From the NCBI RefSeq assembly GCF_017876495.1, contig NZ_JAGIOB010000001.1, forward strand, positions 1,674,001-1,738,000: a DNA stretch of 64,000 nt. The letters are read 5' to 3'. The notes beneath the pieces are model-generated. The model made no database searches, was not told where the DNA came from, and saw nothing but the letters and a program-made list of their open reading frames with translations. The position numbers and the translations under genes were made by a program. Source of the stretch: Microlunatus capsulatus (GTDB lineage: Bacteria > Actinomycetota > Actinomycetes > Propionibacteriales > Propionibacteriaceae). How positions within the stretch are numbered: position 1 is the stretch's first letter; each line of letters starts with the position of its first letter. Below are positions 8,139 to 20,753 of this stretch, piece by piece.

Positions 8139-8483
8139 GTGGGACTGCTGGACGACCTCAAGAGCAAGGCCGGGGAGCTGGGCGAGAAGGTCGAGGAGTC
8201 GCTCGCGGTCGCCAAGGACCGGGCGGGCGACCTGGCCGAGGCGGCCCGGGACCGCGCGGAGGACCTGGGCGGGGCTGCGCAGGAGGTCGTCGAGGTCGCC
8301 CGCGAGCGGGCCGCCGGGCTGGTCGAGGACGTGCGGGACCGCCTCGACGGCGACGACACCCCGGGCACCGCCGACAGCGCGCCCACCGGGGCCGCCGCAC
8401 CGGTCGCCGACCCGCCGCCCGTGGCGGAGCCGCTGGGCTCGGACCCGCTCGACGGACCGGCGGACGGCCCGCGTCCGGCGTGA
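8139..8483 (+). CDS. Hypothetical protein, short coiled-coil N terminus and Pro/Ala-rich tail
   Basis: 114 residues. Residues 1 to about 70 are an uninterrupted charged helix rich in Ala, Glu, Asp, Lys and Arg with a near 11-residue rhythm ('LAEAARDRAEDLGGAAQEV'), like YtxH, LEA or apolipoprotein-type amphipathic helices. Residues 75-114 are low-complexity Ala/Pro/Asp. There is no signal peptide. GTG 8139 was chosen because GAGGAG lies 6 bases upstream. The stop overlaps the GTG of the next gene, so it is translationally coupled to the hydroxy-acid oxidase. No function can be assigned. A stress-protective or membrane-associated helix is a guess. Confidence 0.7.
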   Translation: MGLLDDLKSKAGELGEKVEESLAVAKDRAGDLAEAARDRAEDLGGAAQEVVEVARERAAGLVEDVRDRLDGDDTPGTADSAPTGAAAPVADPPPVAEPLGSDPLDGPADGPRPA

Positions 8484-9562
8484 GCGCACCGCTGACCTCC
8501 GCGCCCGGCGTGCACGACGTCCGTCCCGACCCCGTCGTCGGGTTCGACTACGAGGAGCAGGCCCGGGGGCTGCTGCCGCCGCACGTCAGCGCCTACTACG
8601 GGGCCGCGGCCGGCTCCGGCGGCGGCTCGGCCGAGGGCACCGCCGACTGGTCGGCCGTCCGCTTCCGTCCCCGCGCGCTGCAGGACCTCCGCACCCTCGA
8701 CACGTCGACGACGGTGCTGGGCACCCCGGTCGCCACGCCCGTGCTGGTCGCCCCGATGGCCCAGCAGCTGGGTGCGCACCCCGAGGGCGAGGCGGTGATG
8801 GCCCGGGCCGCGGCCGCGTCCGGCAGCCTGCTGGGGGTCTCGACCAACGTCGCCGTGCCGTTCTCCACCGTCGCCGCCGCCGGCGCGCCCTGGTGGTTCC
8901 AGGTCTACGTCATGCGCGACCACGGGCTCACCGAGCTGCTGGTCCGCCGCGCCGTCGACCACGGCGCCCGCGCCCTGCTGCTGACCGTCGACATGGTCGC
9001 GCTGCTGCCCGCGTCGGTGAACCCGCGGCAGTGGCCGGAGGGGCCGGCGAAGTCCCGGCTCACCAACCTGACCGCCGCCGAGCTGGCCGCGGCCGGACCG
9101 GGGGCGGTCGACATGGACGCCGGCATCAGCCTGGCCACCATCGGCTGGCTGCGCGAGATCAGCGGGCTGCCCGTCCTGGTCAAGGGCGTGCTGCGCGGCG
9201 ACGACGCGGCCGCCTGCGTGGACGCCGGGGCGGCCGGCGTCATCGTGTCCACCCACGGCGGCCGCCGGCTCGGCCCGTCGGTGAGCGCGGCGCGCGCGCT
9301 GCCGGAGGTCGTCGAGGCCGTCGGGGACGCGGGCGAGGTCTACGCCGACAGCGGGATCCGCTCGGCCGAGCACGTGGCCGCCGCGCTGGCGCTGGGCGCC
9401 CGGGCCGTCTTCGTCGGCCGGCCCGCCCTGTGGGCCCTGGCGGCGGACGGCGAGACCGGGGTGCGCGCGGTGCTGGACGGGATGACCGGCGAGCTGCGGC
9501 AGGTGATGACGCAGCTGGGCGCGGCGTCGCTCGACCGGATCACCCGCGATCTGGTCGCCTGA
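8480..9562 (+). CDS. FMN-dependent alpha-hydroxy-acid oxidizing protein (lactate/glycolate oxidase family)
   Basis: 360 residues, family length. The fold is the FMN-binding TIM barrel. 'VLVKGVLRGDDA' carries the conserved FMN-contacting Lys, and 'VSTHGGRRLG' holds the catalytic His and the substrate Arg (about 259 and 262). 'ADSGIRSAEHVAAALALGA' and 'VFVGRPALWALA' are the phosphate-binding end. It oxidises an L-2-hydroxy acid to the 2-oxo acid, with O2 or another acceptor. The usual 'SNHGxRQLD' reads STHGGRRLG here, and the loop after 'LLTVDM' is unusual, so the substrate is unlikely to be plain lactate by default. GTGA overlap with the preceding gene; a P450 follows 13 bases later. Confidence 0.88.
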   Translation: MSAPLTSAPGVHDVRPDPVVGFDYEEQARGLLPPHVSAYYGAAAGSGGGSAEGTADWSAVRFRPRALQDLRTLDTSTTVLGTPVATPVLVAPMAQQLGAHPEGEAVMARAAAASGSLLGVSTNVAVPFSTVAAAGAPWWFQVYVMRDHGLTELLVRRAVDHGARALLLTVDMVALLPASVNPRQWPEGPAKSRLTNLTAAELAAAGPGAVDMDAGISLATIGWLREISGLPVLVKGVLRGDDAAACVDAGAAGVIVSTHGGRRLGPSVSAARALPEVVEAVGDAGEVYADSGIRSAEHVAAALALGARAVFVGRPALWALAADGETGVRAVLDGMTGELRQVMTQLGAASLDRITRDLVA

Positions 9563-16100: not shown

Positions 16101-16424
16101 TCAGGTCGGGGGCGGGCCGGTCAGGTCGTCGATGCCGTGCCGGAGGAGGACGGCGCTGGGGGCGGCGGCGGTGTGCTGGGGCTCCCAGGCGAGGGCGTCG
16201 AAGGGGCACTCGTCGACGCAGATGCCGCAGTACATGCAGAGGCTCCAGTCGATCTCGAAGCGGTCGAGGACGTTCTGGGTCCGCTCGCGGGCACCGGCGG
16301 GCAGGTCCGGGACCGGCTCGGTGTGCGAGTCGATGGTGATGCACCAGGCCGGGCACTCGCGCGCGCAGACCATGCAGGAGGTGCAGGCCGGCTCGATGAG
16401 CCGGATGGAGCCGTGCCCGGTCAC
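16101..16424 (-). CDS. 4Fe-4S ferredoxin, NuoI-like, of the orphan NuoB/C/I set
   Basis: 107 residues with two ferredoxin motifs: Cys14, 17, 20 and 24 ('CTSCMVCARECP') and Cys63, 66, 69 and 73 ('CMYCGICVDECPFDAL'). Each would ligate a 4Fe-4S cluster. It resembles the core of NuoI/HycF but lacks the N-terminal amphipathic segment and long tail of the NuoI in the main nuo operon (212 residues). GTG start overlapping the NuoC-like gene's stop; it is the last gene of the three-gene unit. It probably relays electrons between a ferredoxin-type donor and the NuoB-like subunit. No membrane subunit is nearby. Confidence 0.85.
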   Translation of the reverse strand: MTGHGSIRLIEPACTSCMVCARECPAWCITIDSHTEPVPDLPAGARERTQNVLDRFEIDWSLCMYCGICVDECPFDALAWEPQHTAAAPSAVLLRHGIDDLTGPPPT

Positions 16425-17005
16425 CGGTCAGCCCCGCGTCGTGCGGTACCGGGGCGACGGCGGACCCGGCCCCCGACGGCGGACTCGGCCACCTCGTCGG
16501 GGCTGGCCGGCCCGGCGTCGGGGTCGCGGTCGCCCCAGACGGCCGGGTCAGGTACCCCGGGCGGCACCATCCGACGTCGACTGGGGGACGCGGCGCTCTC
16601 CCCCGGCTCCTTGGCGCCGGGCCAGGCCAGCGCCGTCCGGGCGCCGAGGACGGCGTCCTTGCGCAGCGGCGCGCCCTCGAAGTCGGGGCCGAGCAGCAGC
16701 CGGCGCGGGTCGCCGCCGTCGAAGGTCAGGCCGAACATCTCGGCGGCCTCGCGCTCGGGCCAGCCGGCGCCGGCAACGAGGTCGCGGAGGCTGTCGAGCC
16801 GGCCGCCCTCGCGCGGCACCTCGGTGCCCAGCCGGCGGGTCTCGGCGGGGCGGTCGGGGTGGCGCAGCACGACGACGACCCGCAGGACGTCGGCGCGGCC
16901 CACCTCGTCGACGGCGCCCAGCCACTCGAAGAACGTGAACCCCTCGGACAGCGCGGCGCCGACGGCCTCGCGCCAGCCCGCGGCGGGGACGGTGACGCTG
17001 CTCAC
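16421..17005 (-). CDS. NADH-quinone oxidoreductase subunit C-like protein (orphan set)
   Basis: 194 residues from GTG 17003-17005, which overlaps the NuoB-like stop. The NuoC 30-kDa signature is recognisable: 'FTFFEWLGAVDEVG', 'REAAEMFGLTFDGGDPRRL' and 'APLRKDAVLG' match the ERE..DMFG..F.GHP.L.R.L and LRKD landmarks of the family. The last 60 or so residues are Pro/Arg/Asp-rich and probably disordered. It is much shorter than the operon NuoC (289 residues) and lacks that protein's N-terminal extension. In complex I NuoC docks onto NuoD and NuoB. No NuoD-like gene is present in this unit. Confidence 0.85.
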   Translation of the reverse strand: MSSVTVPAAGWREAVGAALSEGFTFFEWLGAVDEVGRADVLRVVVVLRHPDRPAETRRLGTEVPREGGRLDSLRDLVAGAGWPEREAAEMFGLTFDGGDPRRLLLGPDFEGAPLRKDAVLGARTALAWPGAKEPGESAASPSRRRMVPPGVPDPAVWGDRDPDAGPASPDEVAESAVGGRVRRRPGTARRGADR

Positions 17006-17403
17006 GCCGGCACCCGCAGGTCGTCGAGGACGGCCTGCAGCGCGCCGGGCGGGGGCGGGCAGCCGGGCACGTACACGTCGACCGGGACCAGCGCGTCGAC
17101 GCCCTTGGTCACCGCGTAGGAGTCCCAGTACGGCCCGCCGGAGGAGGCGCAGACGCCGAGCGCAACGACCACCGGCGGGGTCCCGGCCAGCGTGGCGCAG
17201 GCGTCGACGAGCGCGGCGACGGCGGGGGCGAGCCGGTCGGTGACGGTCCCGGAGACGACCACCGCCACGCGGGCGCCGACCGGCAGCGCGACGGGCAGCG
17301 CCGCGGCGGAGAGGGTCGCGGCCTCGACCTCCAGGCTGCAGCAGGCCAGGCCGATCTCCAGCACGTGCAGCGTCCCGTCGCCGTACCAGTCGAGCCACCG
17401 CAT
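17002..17403 (-). CDS. NADH-quinone oxidoreductase subunit B-like protein (orphan set)
   Basis: 133 residues. All four N2-type ligands are kept: Cys21-Cys22 ('GLACCSLEVEA'), Cys85 ('GVCASSGGPYWDSY') and Cys115 ('VPGCPPPPG'). Compared with the operon NuoB, the loop holding '[15 protein letters not shown]' and '[12 protein letters not shown]' is replaced by hydrophobic Ala/Val sequence. In complex I that loop lies by the quinone channel and coupling site. It may therefore pass electrons to a partner other than quinone. ATG 17403 has a TAGCGT -10 box 7 bases upstream. First gene of a three-gene unit, divergent from korA. Confidence 0.85.
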   Translation of the reverse strand: MRWLDWYGDGTLHVLEIGLACCSLEVEAATLSAAALPVALPVGARVAVVVSGTVTDRLAPAVAALVDACATLAGTPPVVVALGVCASSGGPYWDSYAVTKGVDALVPVDVYVPGCPPPPGALQAVLDDLRVPA

Positions 17404-17410
17404 GGGGAAC

Positions 17411-17416
17411 ACGCTA
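17411..17416 (-). promoter_or_regulatory. -10 box (TAGCGT) of a leaderless promoter for the NuoB-like gene
   Basis: On the minus strand TAGCGT lies 7 bases before the ATG at 17403. Confidence 0.5.
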
Positions 17417-17503
17417 ACCCGGTCGGGTGTTGCACCAGGCGTCGCCGCGAGGCAGCGGGGGTTCTCAGCCGATGGATGGTCGGGGGCCCAGGTTAGGGCC
17501 GCC

Positions 17504-17510
17504 TTATCAT
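17504..17510 (+). promoter_or_regulatory. Possible -10 box (TTATCAT) of the korAB promoter
   Basis: TTATCAT is the only AT-rich hexamer-like element in the 251-base divergent gap. It would give a leader of about 135 bases before the korA GTG. The leader is GC-rich and I recognise no riboswitch in it. Confidence 0.3.
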
Positions 17511-17654
17511 GGAACGCTGGGGCACGGTGCCACGCGCGGCGCGAACCAGCATCCGCCGGCACCGCCGGCTCCGAACCATCCCCCGGGCCTCGCGCCCCCG
17601 CGCCGGCCCAGCAGGTCCGTCACGACCCCGTCCGCCACAGAAGGGCACGTAGCT

Positions 17655-19604
17655 GTGAAGCAGGTCCACACCCTCGACCGCGTCGTCATCCGGTTCGCCG
17701 GGGACTCCGGGAACGGGATGCAGCTGACCGGCGACCGGTTCACCGCCGACTCCGCCGTCTTCGGCAACGACATCTCGACGCTGCCGAACTTCCCGGCCGA
17801 GATCCGGGCGCCAGCCGGCACCCTGCCCGGCGTCTCCAGCTTCCAGCTGCACTTCGCCAACTACGACATCATGACCCCGGGCGACCGGCCGGACGTGCTC
17901 GTCGCCATGAACCCGGCGGCGCTCAAGGCCAACATCGCCGACCTGCCGCGCGGGGGCGTCGTCATCGCCGACACCGCGGACTTCACCAAGCGCAACCTGG
18001 CCAAGGTCGGCTACGCGGCGAACCCGCTCGAGGACGACAGCCTCGCCGACTTCCAGGTGCACGCGCTGGACCTGACGGGCATGACCGTCGAGGCCGTCAA
18101 GCCCTTCGGGCTGAGCCGCAAGGACGCCTCCCGGGCCAAGAACATGTTCGCGCTCGGCCTGCTGTCGTGGCTGTACCACCGCCCGACCGAGGGCACGCTG
18201 GCCTTCCTGACCCGCAAGTTCGCCAGCAAGCCGGACATCCGCGACGCCAACGTCACCGCCTTCAAGACCGGTTACGCCTTCGGCGAGACGACCGAGGTGT
18301 TCGCCGTCCGCTACGAGGTGGCCCCGGCCCCCATGCCGCCGGGCCGCTACCGCCAGATCAACGGCAACACCGCGCTGGCGCTGGGCCTGGTCACCGCCGC
18401 CCGCAAGGCCGACCTGCCGCTGTTCCTCGGCGCCTACCCGATCACCCCAGCCTCCGACGTGCTGCACGAGCTGAGCAAGCACAAGCGCTTCGGCGTCACC
18501 ACGTTCCAGGCCGAGGACGAGATCGCCGGCGTCGGCGCCGCGCTGGGCGCCAGCTTCGCCGGCCACCTCGGCGTCACGACGAGCTCGGGCCCCGGCATCG
18601 CGCTCAAGGCCGAGACGATCGGCCTGGCCGTGATGACCGAGCTGCCGCTCGTCGTCATCGACGTCCAGCGCGCCGGCCCCAGCACCGGGATGCCCACCAA
18701 GACCGAGCAGTCGGACCTGCTGCAGGTGATGTACGGCCGCAACGGCGAGGCGCCGGTGCCCGTGCTGGCCGCGCAGTCCCCGTCGGACTGCTTCGACACC
18801 GCCGTGGAGGCCGTTCGGATGGCGGTGAAGTACCGCACCCCGGTGATGCTGCTCTCCGACGGCTACATCGCCAACGGCGCCGAGCCCTGGCACGTGCCGG
18901 ACCTGTCGGCCATCGCGCCGATCGACCCGCAGTTCGCCACCGAGGCCAACGGCACCGACGCGAAGGGCGAGCCGGTCTTCCTGCCCTACCTCCGCGACCC
19001 GGAGACGCTGGCCCGGCCCTGGGCCGCGCCCGGCACCGACGGCCTGCAGCACCGGATCGGCGGCATCGAGAAGGCCAAGGACACCGGCGCGGTGTCCTAC
19101 GACCCGGCGAACCACGACGCGATGGTCCGCACCCGGCAGGCCAAGATCGACGGCATCGTCCGCGACATCCCGGACCTCGTCGTCGACGACCCGGCCGACG
19201 CCGAGGGCCGCACCGCGCGCGTCCTCGTGCTGGGCTGGGGCTCGACCTACGGCCCCGTCACCGCGGCCGTCCGCCGGGTCCGCAACGGCGGCCGGCTGGT
19301 CGCCCAGACCCACCTGCGCCACCTCAACCCGTTCCCGGGCAACCTCGGCGAGGTGCTGCGGAGCTACGACCGCGTCATCGTGCCCGAGATGAACCTCGGC
19401 CAGCTGGCCATGATGCTGCGGGCCAAGTACCTCGTCGACGTGCACAGCTACTCGCGCGTCCGCGGCCTGCCGATCTCGCTGAGCGAGCTGGCCCGCGACC
19501 TCGACGAGGAGATCGACGCCCTGGCGGGCGACCCGGACCGCGAGCCCTCCCCCGACCCGGCCGACGAGCTCACCACCCTCAGCACCGAAGGAGTCCCCGC
19601 GTGA
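17655..19604 (+). CDS. korA: 2-oxoacid:ferredoxin oxidoreductase, fused gamma-alpha subunit
   Basis: 649 residues. Residues 1 to about 190 are the gamma (catalytic, POR_N) domain ('RVVIRFAGDSGNGMQLTGDR', 'TLPNFPAEIRAPAGT', 'NPAALKANI'). The alpha domain follows with 'LPLFLGAYPITPASDVLHEL', 'TFQAEDEIAGVGAALGASFA', 'TTSSGPGIALKAETIGLA' and 'RAGPSTGMPTKTEQSDLL'. KorAB oxidatively decarboxylates 2-oxoglutarate (or a similar 2-oxoacid) to the acyl-CoA and reduces ferredoxin. It is an oxygen-tolerant TCA-cycle variant in mycobacteria. GTG 17655 is preceded by AGAAGGG. The stop overlaps the korB start. Confidence 0.94.
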   Translation: MKQVHTLDRVVIRFAGDSGNGMQLTGDRFTADSAVFGNDISTLPNFPAEIRAPAGTLPGVSSFQLHFANYDIMTPGDRPDVLVAMNPAALKANIADLPRGGVVIADTADFTKRNLAKVGYAANPLEDDSLADFQVHALDLTGMTVEAVKPFGLSRKDASRAKNMFALGLLSWLYHRPTEGTLAFLTRKFASKPDIRDANVTAFKTGYAFGETTEVFAVRYEVAPAPMPPGRYRQINGNTALALGLVTAARKADLPLFLGAYPITPASDVLHELSKHKRFGVTTFQAEDEIAGVGAALGASFAGHLGVTTSSGPGIALKAETIGLAVMTELPLVVIDVQRAGPSTGMPTKTEQSDLLQVMYGRNGEAPVPVLAAQSPSDCFDTAVEAVRMAVKYRTPVMLLSDGYIANGAEPWHVPDLSAIAPIDPQFATEANGTDAKGEPVFLPYLRDPETLARPWAAPGTDGLQHRIGGIEKAKDTGAVSYDPANHDAMVRTRQAKIDGIVRDIPDLVVDDPADAEGRTARVLVLGWGSTYGPVTAAVRRVRNGGRLVAQTHLRHLNPFPGNLGEVLRSYDRVIVPEMNLGQLAMMLRAKYLVDVHSYSRVRGLPISLSELARDLDEEIDALAGDPDREPSPDPADELTTLSTEGVPA

Positions 19605-20707
19605 CCACGCTCGACCGCCCCTCCACCGCTCCCGGCAGCACCCCGCGCTCCGGCATCGCCGGCGTCCCGCTGGCGCTGGAGCCGCTGACGCGCAAGGACT
19701 TCACCTCCGACCAGGAGGTCCGCTGGTGCCCCGGCTGCGGCGACTACGCCGTGCTCGCGGCCTTCCAGGGCTTCATGCCCGAGCTGGGCATCAAGAAGGA
19801 GAACACGATCATCGTGTCGGGCATCGGCTGCTCGTCGCGGTTCCCGTACTACGTCGACTCCTACGGCATGCACTCGATCCACGGCCGGGCGACGGCGATC
19901 GCCACCGGCGTGGCCACCGCCCGCGAGGACGCCGCCGTGTTCGTCATCACCGGTGACGGCGACGCGCTGTCGATCGGCGGCAACCACCTCATCCACATCC
20001 TGCGGCGCAACGTCAACGTGACGATCCTGCTGTTCAACAACCGGATCTACGGCCTGACTAAGGGCCAGTACTCCCCCACGTCCGAGATCGGCAAGGTCAC
20101 CAAGTCGACGCCGCTGGGCTCGCTCGACAACCCGTTCAACCCGGTCTCGCTGGCCCTGGGCGCCGAGGCCACCTTCGTGGCCCGGACCATCGACTCCGAC
20201 CGCAAGCACCTCACCTCGGTGCTGCGCGAGGCCGCCGCCCACCGCGGCACCTCGCTGGTGGAGATCTACCAGAACTGCCCGATCTTCAACGACAACGCCT
20301 TCGACGCGCTGAAGGACCCGAGCACGTCGGCCGACGCGATCATCCCGCTGGTGCACGGCGAGCCGATCCGCTTCGGCACCGACCTGCACCTGGGCGTCGT
20401 CCGCGACCCGGCAACGGGCGAGTTCAGCGTCGTCGAGGTCTCCGACGTGGGCGTCGAGGCCCTGGTGGTGCACGACGCGCACCTGCAGGACCCGTCGTAC
20501 GCGTTCGGGCTCTCCCGGCTGACCGACGCCGGGGTCCTGCACCGCGCGCCGATCGGCATCTTCCGCGACGTCGCGGCCCCGGCCTACGACGACCTCGCCC
20601 GCGAGCAGGTCGCCCTGGCCAGCGCCTCCGGCGGCGACGACGACGCCCTCCAGTCGCTGATCAACGGCGCCGACGCCTGGATGGTGGGCGGCGCACAGGA
20701 GGACTGA
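19601..20707 (+). CDS. korB: 2-oxoacid:ferredoxin oxidoreductase, beta (TPP-binding) subunit
   Basis: 368 residues. 'VRWCPGCGDYAVL' carries the conserved CxxC, 'VSGIGCSSRFPYYVDSYGMH' adds the next cluster Cys, and the Mg-TPP motif is 'GDGDALSIGGNHLIH' followed by 'LLFNNRIYGLTKGQ'. These are the usual features of the beta subunit with one 4Fe-4S cluster. GTG 19601 overlaps the korA stop, with GAAGGAG 7 bases upstream inside korA. The reduced ferredoxin it makes needs an acceptor. The divergent NuoB/C/I-like proteins are the obvious local candidates, which is inference from neighbourhood. Confidence 0.94.
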   Translation: MTTLDRPSTAPGSTPRSGIAGVPLALEPLTRKDFTSDQEVRWCPGCGDYAVLAAFQGFMPELGIKKENTIIVSGIGCSSRFPYYVDSYGMHSIHGRATAIATGVATAREDAAVFVITGDGDALSIGGNHLIHILRRNVNVTILLFNNRIYGLTKGQYSPTSEIGKVTKSTPLGSLDNPFNPVSLALGAEATFVARTIDSDRKHLTSVLREAAAHRGTSLVEIYQNCPIFNDNAFDALKDPSTSADAIIPLVHGEPIRFGTDLHLGVVRDPATGEFSVVEVSDVGVEALVVHDAHLQDPSYAFGLSRLTDAGVLHRAPIGIFRDVAAPAYDDLAREQVALASASGGDDDALQSLINGADAWMVGGAQED

Positions 20708-20718
20708 CCGACCCGTGC

Positions 20719-20753
20719 CCTGAGCCTGTCGAAGGGCCTTCGACAGGCTCAGG
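20719..20753. repeat. Inverted pair of the CCTTCGACAGGCTCAGG repeat; probable bidirectional terminator
   Basis: Arms 20719-20735 and 20737-20753 are the same head-to-head pair as at 2125-2159. It again lies between convergent genes (korB and the lipoprotein). Confidence 0.8.

Follow-up and report, generated by a model that had tools for sequence, protein, structure and literature searches.

What can three subunits of respiratory complex I do beside a 2-oxoacid oxidoreductase, in a gene unit that holds no membrane subunit? The question is raised by a 64,000-nucleotide stretch of the Microlunatus capsulatus genome (contig NZ_JAGIOB010000001.1, positions 1,674,001 to 1,738,000; hereafter the window), in which a trio of nuoB-, nuoC- and nuoI-like genes is transcribed divergently from korA and korB. 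We refer to the three proteins as B2, C2 and I2, and to a second NuoD-like protein of the same genome (NuoD2) as D2. In many actinobacteria the comparisons below show a second set of complex I parts, without a pump and with parts of the quinone site lost but the Fe-S ligands kept, which suggests a soluble enzyme that transfers electrons and is tied to the oxidation of 2-oxoacids. Judged from sequence comparisons, the trio and the distant NuoD2 probably make up a soluble four-subunit B2-C2-D2-I2 complex, the Q-module of a nuo2 cluster set free.

The trio and korAB

The trio, korAB and the stretch between them are laid out as follows.

17002-17403, minus strand: B2, nuoB-like gene, 133 amino acids; Pfam Oxidored_q6, E 2.3e-15
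16421-17002, minus strand: C2, nuoC-like gene, 193 amino acids; Pfam Complex1_30kDa, E 2.2e-20
16101-16424, minus strand: I2, nuoI-like gene, 107 amino acids; two 4Fe-4S (CxxCxxCxxxC) motifs, no N-terminal membrane anchor
17404-17654, no strand: divergent intergenic stretch from B2 to korA
17655-19604, plus strand: korA, 2-oxoacid:acceptor oxidoreductase alpha subunit, 649 amino acids; TIGR03710, 654 bits, above cut-off
19601-20707, plus strand: korB, 2-oxoacid:acceptor oxidoreductase beta subunit, 368 amino acids; Pfam TPP_enzyme_C

These coordinates and profile matches agree with the original prediction, made from the window's sequence, of three coupled genes resembling nuoB, nuoC and nuoI that lie divergent from korAB; the gene calls likewise place no membrane subunit in the unit, which ends at the adjoining thiD. 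I2 also matches the NCBIfam profiles TIGR01971 (NuoI, 3.9e-15) and TIGR02179 (PorD/KorD, 2.1e-9), both below their cut-offs, and korB scores 252.5 bits against TIGR02177, slightly below the cut-off of 261.9. No sigma-70-type consensus was found in a scan of the stretch between B2 and korA.

The four cysteine ligands of cluster N2, which B2 had been said to keep (Cys21, 22, 85 and 115), do not vary in any of the 16 rows of an alignment, and sequence alignment also bears out the predicted absence of the quinone loop of the operon NuoB. The N-terminal segment is lost as well. An AlphaFold model of B2 has a predicted local distance difference test score of 83.8, and all of the 50 PDB matches listed for it are complex I or NDH-1 chains.

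A second NuoD and no second membrane arm

The genome consists of one contig of 4,409,943 bases, and the gene for D2 (385 amino acids) lies on it at C1:2915704-2916861, 1.2 Mb from the trio, starting 4 bases behind a gene for a Methyltransf_28 (MidA/NDUFAF7-family) methyltransferase. An orphan trio without NuoD is ruled out by this gene, and of the observation as first put, the trio, its ligands, the loss of the loop and the korAB neighbourhood stand, while the missing NuoD does not. NuoH is present in a single copy, and profile searches of the genome turned up neither a further NuoH nor another LMN set. The profile PF00361 marks antiporter-type stretches at five places. Three of these belong to the main nuo operon, and the other two, near 1.17 Mb, we take to be Mrp antiporter subunits; with one NuoH and these stretches accounted for, a hidden second membrane arm is ruled out. 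The prediction had allowed that a NuoD partner and a full membrane arm elsewhere would make the trio an ordinary split complex. Only half of this was found: with D2 present, one NuoH and no second arm, the module can count on a NuoD partner but lacks a dedicated membrane arm. NuoE, NuoF and NuoG gave no match in the trio loci read, and no genome-wide search for them was made beyond the main operon.

Compared with NDH-1, the module has homologues of B, C, D and I with the ligands of N2 and of two 4Fe-4S clusters. It has neither a membrane arm of its own (NuoH, A, J-N) nor the NADH module (NuoE, F, G), nor the quinone site as defined by His38 and Tyr87 of Nqo4 and the NuoB loop. The large subunit of a [NiFe] hydrogenase carries two CxxC pairs; D2 has three cysteines (at 104, 286 and 292) and no CxxC pair, and therefore no NiFe site.

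D2 was found to travel with B2 in a sample of 196 genomes of the order, comprising 75 from the family of the window, Propionibacteriaceae (f1), and 38, 75 and 8 from three further families (f2, f3 and f4). Presence was called by score (D2 at E <=1e-35 with a long match, B2 at E <=1e-21; the best main NuoD and NuoB matches are weaker). Both genes were present in 94 genomes and neither in 99; of the remaining three, G068 carries B2 together with a broken D2, and in G019 and G147 B2 is absent and D2 is broken. Because the two genes lie apart, in the genome of the window as in the others read, this co-occurrence is not mere linkage. The pairwise distances of D2 also track those of B2, C2 and I2 among 36 f1 genomes once the korA distance is removed (partial r 0.38, 0.48 and 0.38), with none of 500 permutations equally high. 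The ratios of nonsynonymous to synonymous substitution rates (dN/dS) against the closest relative, G113, were 0.11 for B2, 0.19 for C2, 0.29 for I2, 0.23 for D2, 0.30 for the methyltransferase and 0.12 for korA. The genomes with broken NuoD2 (G147, locus L212; G068, L213; G019, L214) all belong to one genus, g2, where the decay appears to be joint.

Origin from nuo2

A nuo2 operon and a separate nuoD2 of Streptomyces are already in print: both are described in the accessible text of PMC8388888, that of PMC9739823 gives nuo2 as SCO4599-SCO4608, and that of PMC8981147 names SCO4594 an alpha-ketoglutarate ferredoxin oxidoreductase. Across the loci that we read, where gene sets were called by tblastn and single genes may be missed or lie past a contig end, the cluster takes two forms. 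The full form is A-B-C-H-I-J-K-L-M-N without D, E, F and G and with D2 elsewhere, as seen in Streptomyces, Intrasporangiaceae, other named loci and seven loci of f2-f4. The reduced form is B-C-I only; it was found in the window, in 13 further f1 loci, at none of which a membrane arm of its own was found, and in the named loci L003, L004 (Enemella dayhoffiae), L005 and L056 (Tessaracoccus oleiagri, whose row is the same as that of G030). In loci of Acidimicrobiia and Actinomarina the nuo2-type cluster includes its own D, and in Fodinicola feengrottensis (L040) D2 and a MidA-like methyltransferase gene adjoin a full nuo2 cluster.

In a tree of B2, C2 and I2 with 70 rows, the 44 reduced rows form one clade inside the full form, with a Shimodaira-Hasegawa-like approximate likelihood ratio test (SH-aLRT) value of 98. 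A second tree of 74 rows with more families, which holds only 15 of the 41 f1 genomes with the trio, places 48 reduced rows in one clade (SH-aLRT 94) and one reduced row, G345, apart among full-type rows, and so requires at least two changes from full to reduced. Loci L012, L009, L015, L024 and L033 had missing pieces and were dropped in building the trees; L286, L293 and L316 are left out of the second. With reduced rows nested in full-type nuo2, the trio unit is, on this phylogeny, a descendant of the actinobacterial nuo2 cluster that has lost the proton-pumping membrane arm, and by the same reckoning the reduced form arose at least twice, a count that is a lower bound because the trees were built quickly and their branches are long.

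In the Fodinicola locus (L040:8420-20285), the NuoD2 match falls in two frames (18323-19198 and 19198-19479) with the MidA-like gene adjoining, and NuoF-like matches lie at 8420-9198, on the opposite side of the nuo2 cluster.

Distribution of the two forms

The trio is present in 41 f1 genomes, and C2 was found in every one of them. NuoH occurs exactly once in 39 of these (two copies in G176, three in G188) and at least twice in all 54 D2-carrying genomes of f2-f4, seven of which were read as full. Beyond the order, D2 was found at E 1e-36 or better in 153 of 393 genomes of the class. Among 40 B2 loci of class genomes, picked to cover families and low-scoring D2 and not at random, 35 are reduced and come from 13 families besides that of the window (G530 and G486, where the contig cuts the unit, are counted here), and five are full-type (G201, G222, G342, G428 and G480). 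The reduced form was thus read in 14 families, and NuoH is single in 31 of the 35 reduced class genomes (two copies in G215, G383, G437 and G486). A search of actinobacterial genomes for the trio and its neighbours had been proposed with the original prediction; since the unit recurs across families, chance is excluded.

Residues lost with the membrane arm and residues kept

Residues were compared between reduced units and 21 full-type D2, 12 of them from genomes with a nuo2 cluster read (for one, G428, the reading includes NuoA and stops at NuoB) and nine judged by at least two NuoH. The 40 f1 rows of D2 exclude the G068 and G147 fragments, and eight genomes were kept as a separate class, either with no trio found (G371, G479, G506) or with an unsettled gene set (G211, G262, G308, G327, G344). 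According to the accessible text of PMC5938582, His38 and Tyr87 are important residues in the reduction of quinone, and Asp139 is a residue that turns to NuoH.

An acid-x-G-A-x-T-P motif of D2, whose acid corresponds to Thermus Asp139 when the motifs are aligned, is present in 21/21 full-type proteins, in 0/40 reduced ones of f1 and in 0/35 reduced ones elsewhere, and in three of the eight genomes set apart. The loop of B2, scored by its PRxAD pattern with degenerate loops (G247, G239) counted as lost, is found in 12/12 full-type units, 0/41 of f1 and 3/35 reduced units elsewhere (G298, G345, G215). The YPDV part of the I2 anchor, scored with the motif placed by match, is found in 11/11, 0/41 and 1/33 (G345) respectively, I2 having been scored in 33 of the 35 reduced class loci. 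On this sequence evidence, three features disappear together with the membrane arm: the quinone loop of NuoB, the anchor that ties NuoI to the membrane, and the acidic GAxTP motif.

The quinone His of D2 (Nqo4 His38), placed by its distances to Thr64 (26) and Tyr87 (49), which fit the main NuoD of the same genome, is present in 21/21 full-type proteins and 0/40 of f1. Outside f1, 29 of 35 reduced D2 retain this His, a count that omits G371, G479 and G506; its loss was rejected as a mark of every reduced genome, and because that loss is not general the acidic motif was taken as the marker. The Tyr87 position is Trp in all D2 aligned, full and reduced, except in the misaligned row of the G068 fragment.

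Other residues are kept. The four B2 cysteines are present in 41/41 f1 genomes and 35/35 reduced ones elsewhere (a strict pattern matches 34, and G383 has the variant GCAP), both I2 4Fe-4S motifs in 41/41 and 33/33, and the Arg of the D2 motif LHRG in 40/40 of f1, 38/38 elsewhere (G371, G479 and G506 included) and 21/21 full-type proteins. As the alignments read, the parts for membrane seating and quinone reduction are gone and the electron-carrying parts remain.

Two genomes, G345 and G211, were noted at loci L310 and L319 (the contig of L319 stops behind C2). In G345 NuoH is single, the B2 loop is nearly intact and the acidic NuoD motif is already altered, which looks like a recent loss of the nuo2 membrane arm; the same probably goes for G211.

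Link to korAB

In relatives of the family the trio is again found near korAB. All 37 f1 trio genomes for which coordinates are listed have B2 and korA together on a single contig, at distances of 0.1-10.7 kb that stay within 1 kb in 24 cases, and in the remaining four of the 41 korA lies in the stretch fetched around the trio. Among reduced loci elsewhere, korA matches were seen in the fetched stretch for 25 of 35, those of L301 being weak pieces only. A conserved acceptor gene was not found beside the trio in the loci listed, where the genes between trio and korA vary (helicase, sulfate assimilation and others).

One f1 genus has sulfate-assimilation genes between the trio and korA (L158:11031-16651, L163:11168-14684), namely sulfite reductase (PF01077, in L163), 3'-phosphoadenosine-5'-phosphosulfate reductase (PF01507, in both) and TauE (in L158). 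Sulfite reductase could be an electron acceptor in this genus, though not in general.

A methyltransferase tied to D2

The methyltransferase encoded beside D2 is a member of Pfam Methyltransf_28 (E 1.8e-11; 44.4 bits against a cut-off of 23.3). Genes of this family occur in 63 of the 196 genomes of the order, and every one of these genomes carries D2, which ties the methylase to D2. Its Pfam family likens this protein, encoded beside D2, to NDUFAF7/MidA. According to the accessible text of PMC3829151, NDUFAF7/MidA dimethylates Arg85 of NDUFS2 near N2, and Thermus has Thr64 there. At this N2-proximal position D2 has Arg (Arg67), and the main NuoD of the same genome has Thr.

A probable soluble Q-module and its rivals

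We infer the following route. 2-Oxoacid oxidation by KorAB would deliver electrons, directly or via ferredoxin, to the two I2 clusters, and from these they would pass to cluster N2 in B2. The pocket between B2 and D2 that once took up quinone would be the exit, where a soluble acceptor other than quinone receives them. B2, C2, D2 and I2 would form one complex, and the MidA-type methyltransferase may modify the N2-proximal Arg67 of D2. Of the earlier interpretation, this keeps a minimal module without NADH and membrane modules that is linked to korAB, and drops its orphan state and its docking. The larger proposition, that the Q-module works as a soluble, quinone-independent enzyme, freed from the pump at least twice in the class, with the Fe-S wire and in part the NuoD methylase kept and 2-oxoacid electrons sent to a new acceptor, we give an even chance.

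Several observations weigh against the soluble four-subunit complex fed by KorAB. The trio is missing in 34 of 75 f1 genomes and D2 is broken in three, and the trio is therefore dispensable. Against the more distant G050, dN/dS rises to 0.47-0.56 for B2, C2, I2, D2 and the methyltransferase, with korA at 0.16, so that the module is less constrained than korA. The link to korA is not a strict one: korA was not seen in the fetched stretch of ten of the 35 reduced loci elsewhere, strong korA matches occur in 173 of the 196 genomes and B2 in only 95, and a true korA is lacking in two full-type genomes, G064 and G171. Pfam detects the MidA family in only nine of the 41 f1 trio genomes, to which tblastn adds G123, G125 and G141; in many reduced genomes, then, the D2-linked methylase has either disappeared or diverged. 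Finally, since the quinone His is kept in most reduced D2 outside f1, those genomes may still reduce quinone.

The last point bears on docking. As originally conceived, the trio would plug into the main complex I through that complex's NuoD, which is at odds with a module that has its own NuoD and has lost NuoH-, membrane- and quinone-facing parts. Recast with D2, a B-C-D-I module would take over the membrane arm of the main complex I by docking there instead of the usual peripheral arm, and act as a ferredoxin:menaquinone pump; the main complex I is present, with the only NuoH, the quinone His is retained in 29/35 reduced genomes outside f1, and ferredoxin-fed complex I-like enzymes have been proposed elsewhere (PMC11238625, accessible text). 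We hold this to be quite unlikely, because the anchor (0/41 and 1/33), the loop (0/41 and 3/35) and the acidic motif (0/40 and 0/35) vanish where the module's own membrane arm is missing, whereas the full-type units scored all keep them (11/11, 12/12 and 21/21). A structural or regulatory partner of KorAB (a dock, an oxygen shield or an electron buffer), with no turnover at the substrate site, would account for the head-to-head linkage with korAB, for the weak likeness of I2 to the PorD/KorD delta subunit (TIGR02179, below cut-off) and for a former quinone pocket from which known ligands have gone in f1. A mere dock, however, needs neither B2 nor D2, and the conserved N2 ligands, the conserved N2-proximal Arg and the D2-linked methyltransferase point to a working redox centre beyond I2, so that we consider a role of this kind unlikely.

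Decay remains to be weighed. A relic of nuo2 on its way out would be expected to show the long stem branch (0.91 in the tree), the patchy presence in f1, the broken D2 of G019, G068 and G147 and the looser constraint than korA against G050. It would hardly show intact B2 and I2 ligands in 41/41 genomes, dN/dS of 0.11-0.29 against G113, unlinked B2 and D2 that are kept and lost jointly, or an identical reduced set in many families, and we regard it as very unlikely. A soluble four-subunit module that still carries electrons is the reading that we retain.

Relation to known systems

The Q-module of complex I (NuoB, C, D and I, with clusters N6a, N6b and N2) has the same four subunits and cluster ligands as B2-C2-D2-I2; the latter stands alone, without the loop, the anchor and the acidic motif and, in f1, without the quinone His as well. 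Soluble group 3 [NiFe] hydrogenases also pair NuoB- and NuoD-like subunits in soluble form; D2 differs in having no CxxC pair and so no NiFe site. An 11-subunit complex I-like enzyme has, unlike the trio module, a membrane arm and a quinone site. Shared with the module are the lack of an NADH module and the proposal of ferredoxin input, as put forward in the accessible text of PMC11238625. The Streptomyces nuo2 cluster resembles the window unit in gene family, in the B-C-I order, in a NuoD2 that lies apart (from the papers cited) and in its place near korAB; it has A, H, J, K, L, M and N and the NuoB loop, which the window unit has lost. An open-licence literature search found no description of the reduced trio, its NuoD2 or the motif losses, and the accessible text of two papers on Propionibacterium respiration (PMC8360058, PMC11494915) does not mention the trio.

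Complex I is usually held to require its membrane arm, and the usual story has its pump built from a soluble hydrogenase. If the larger proposition above is true, complex I has been the source of another, non-respiratory type of enzyme, and the direction of that story is turned round. With the membrane arm removed at least twice and the electron wire kept, the reduced units would form a natural experiment on residue roles, separating the residues for quinone and pumping (NuoB loop, NuoI anchor, acidic GAxTP motif, NuoD His38) from those for electron transfer. Two questions also come within reach of experiment: the destination of the electrons from KorAB in these actinobacteria, and the methylation substrates of bacterial MidA proteins.

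Other features of the loci

A protein of 495-529 amino acids with an SLSPAYLPQ-like motif near its start, for which no Pfam match was found in two members searched, flanks the reduced trio in five loci (L162:7117-8658, L163:7975-9564, L158:7611-9161, L198:2674-4161 and L209:1357-2853). In the window, an inverted repeat with 17-base arms lies directly 3' of korB (20719-20753) and is possibly a terminator.

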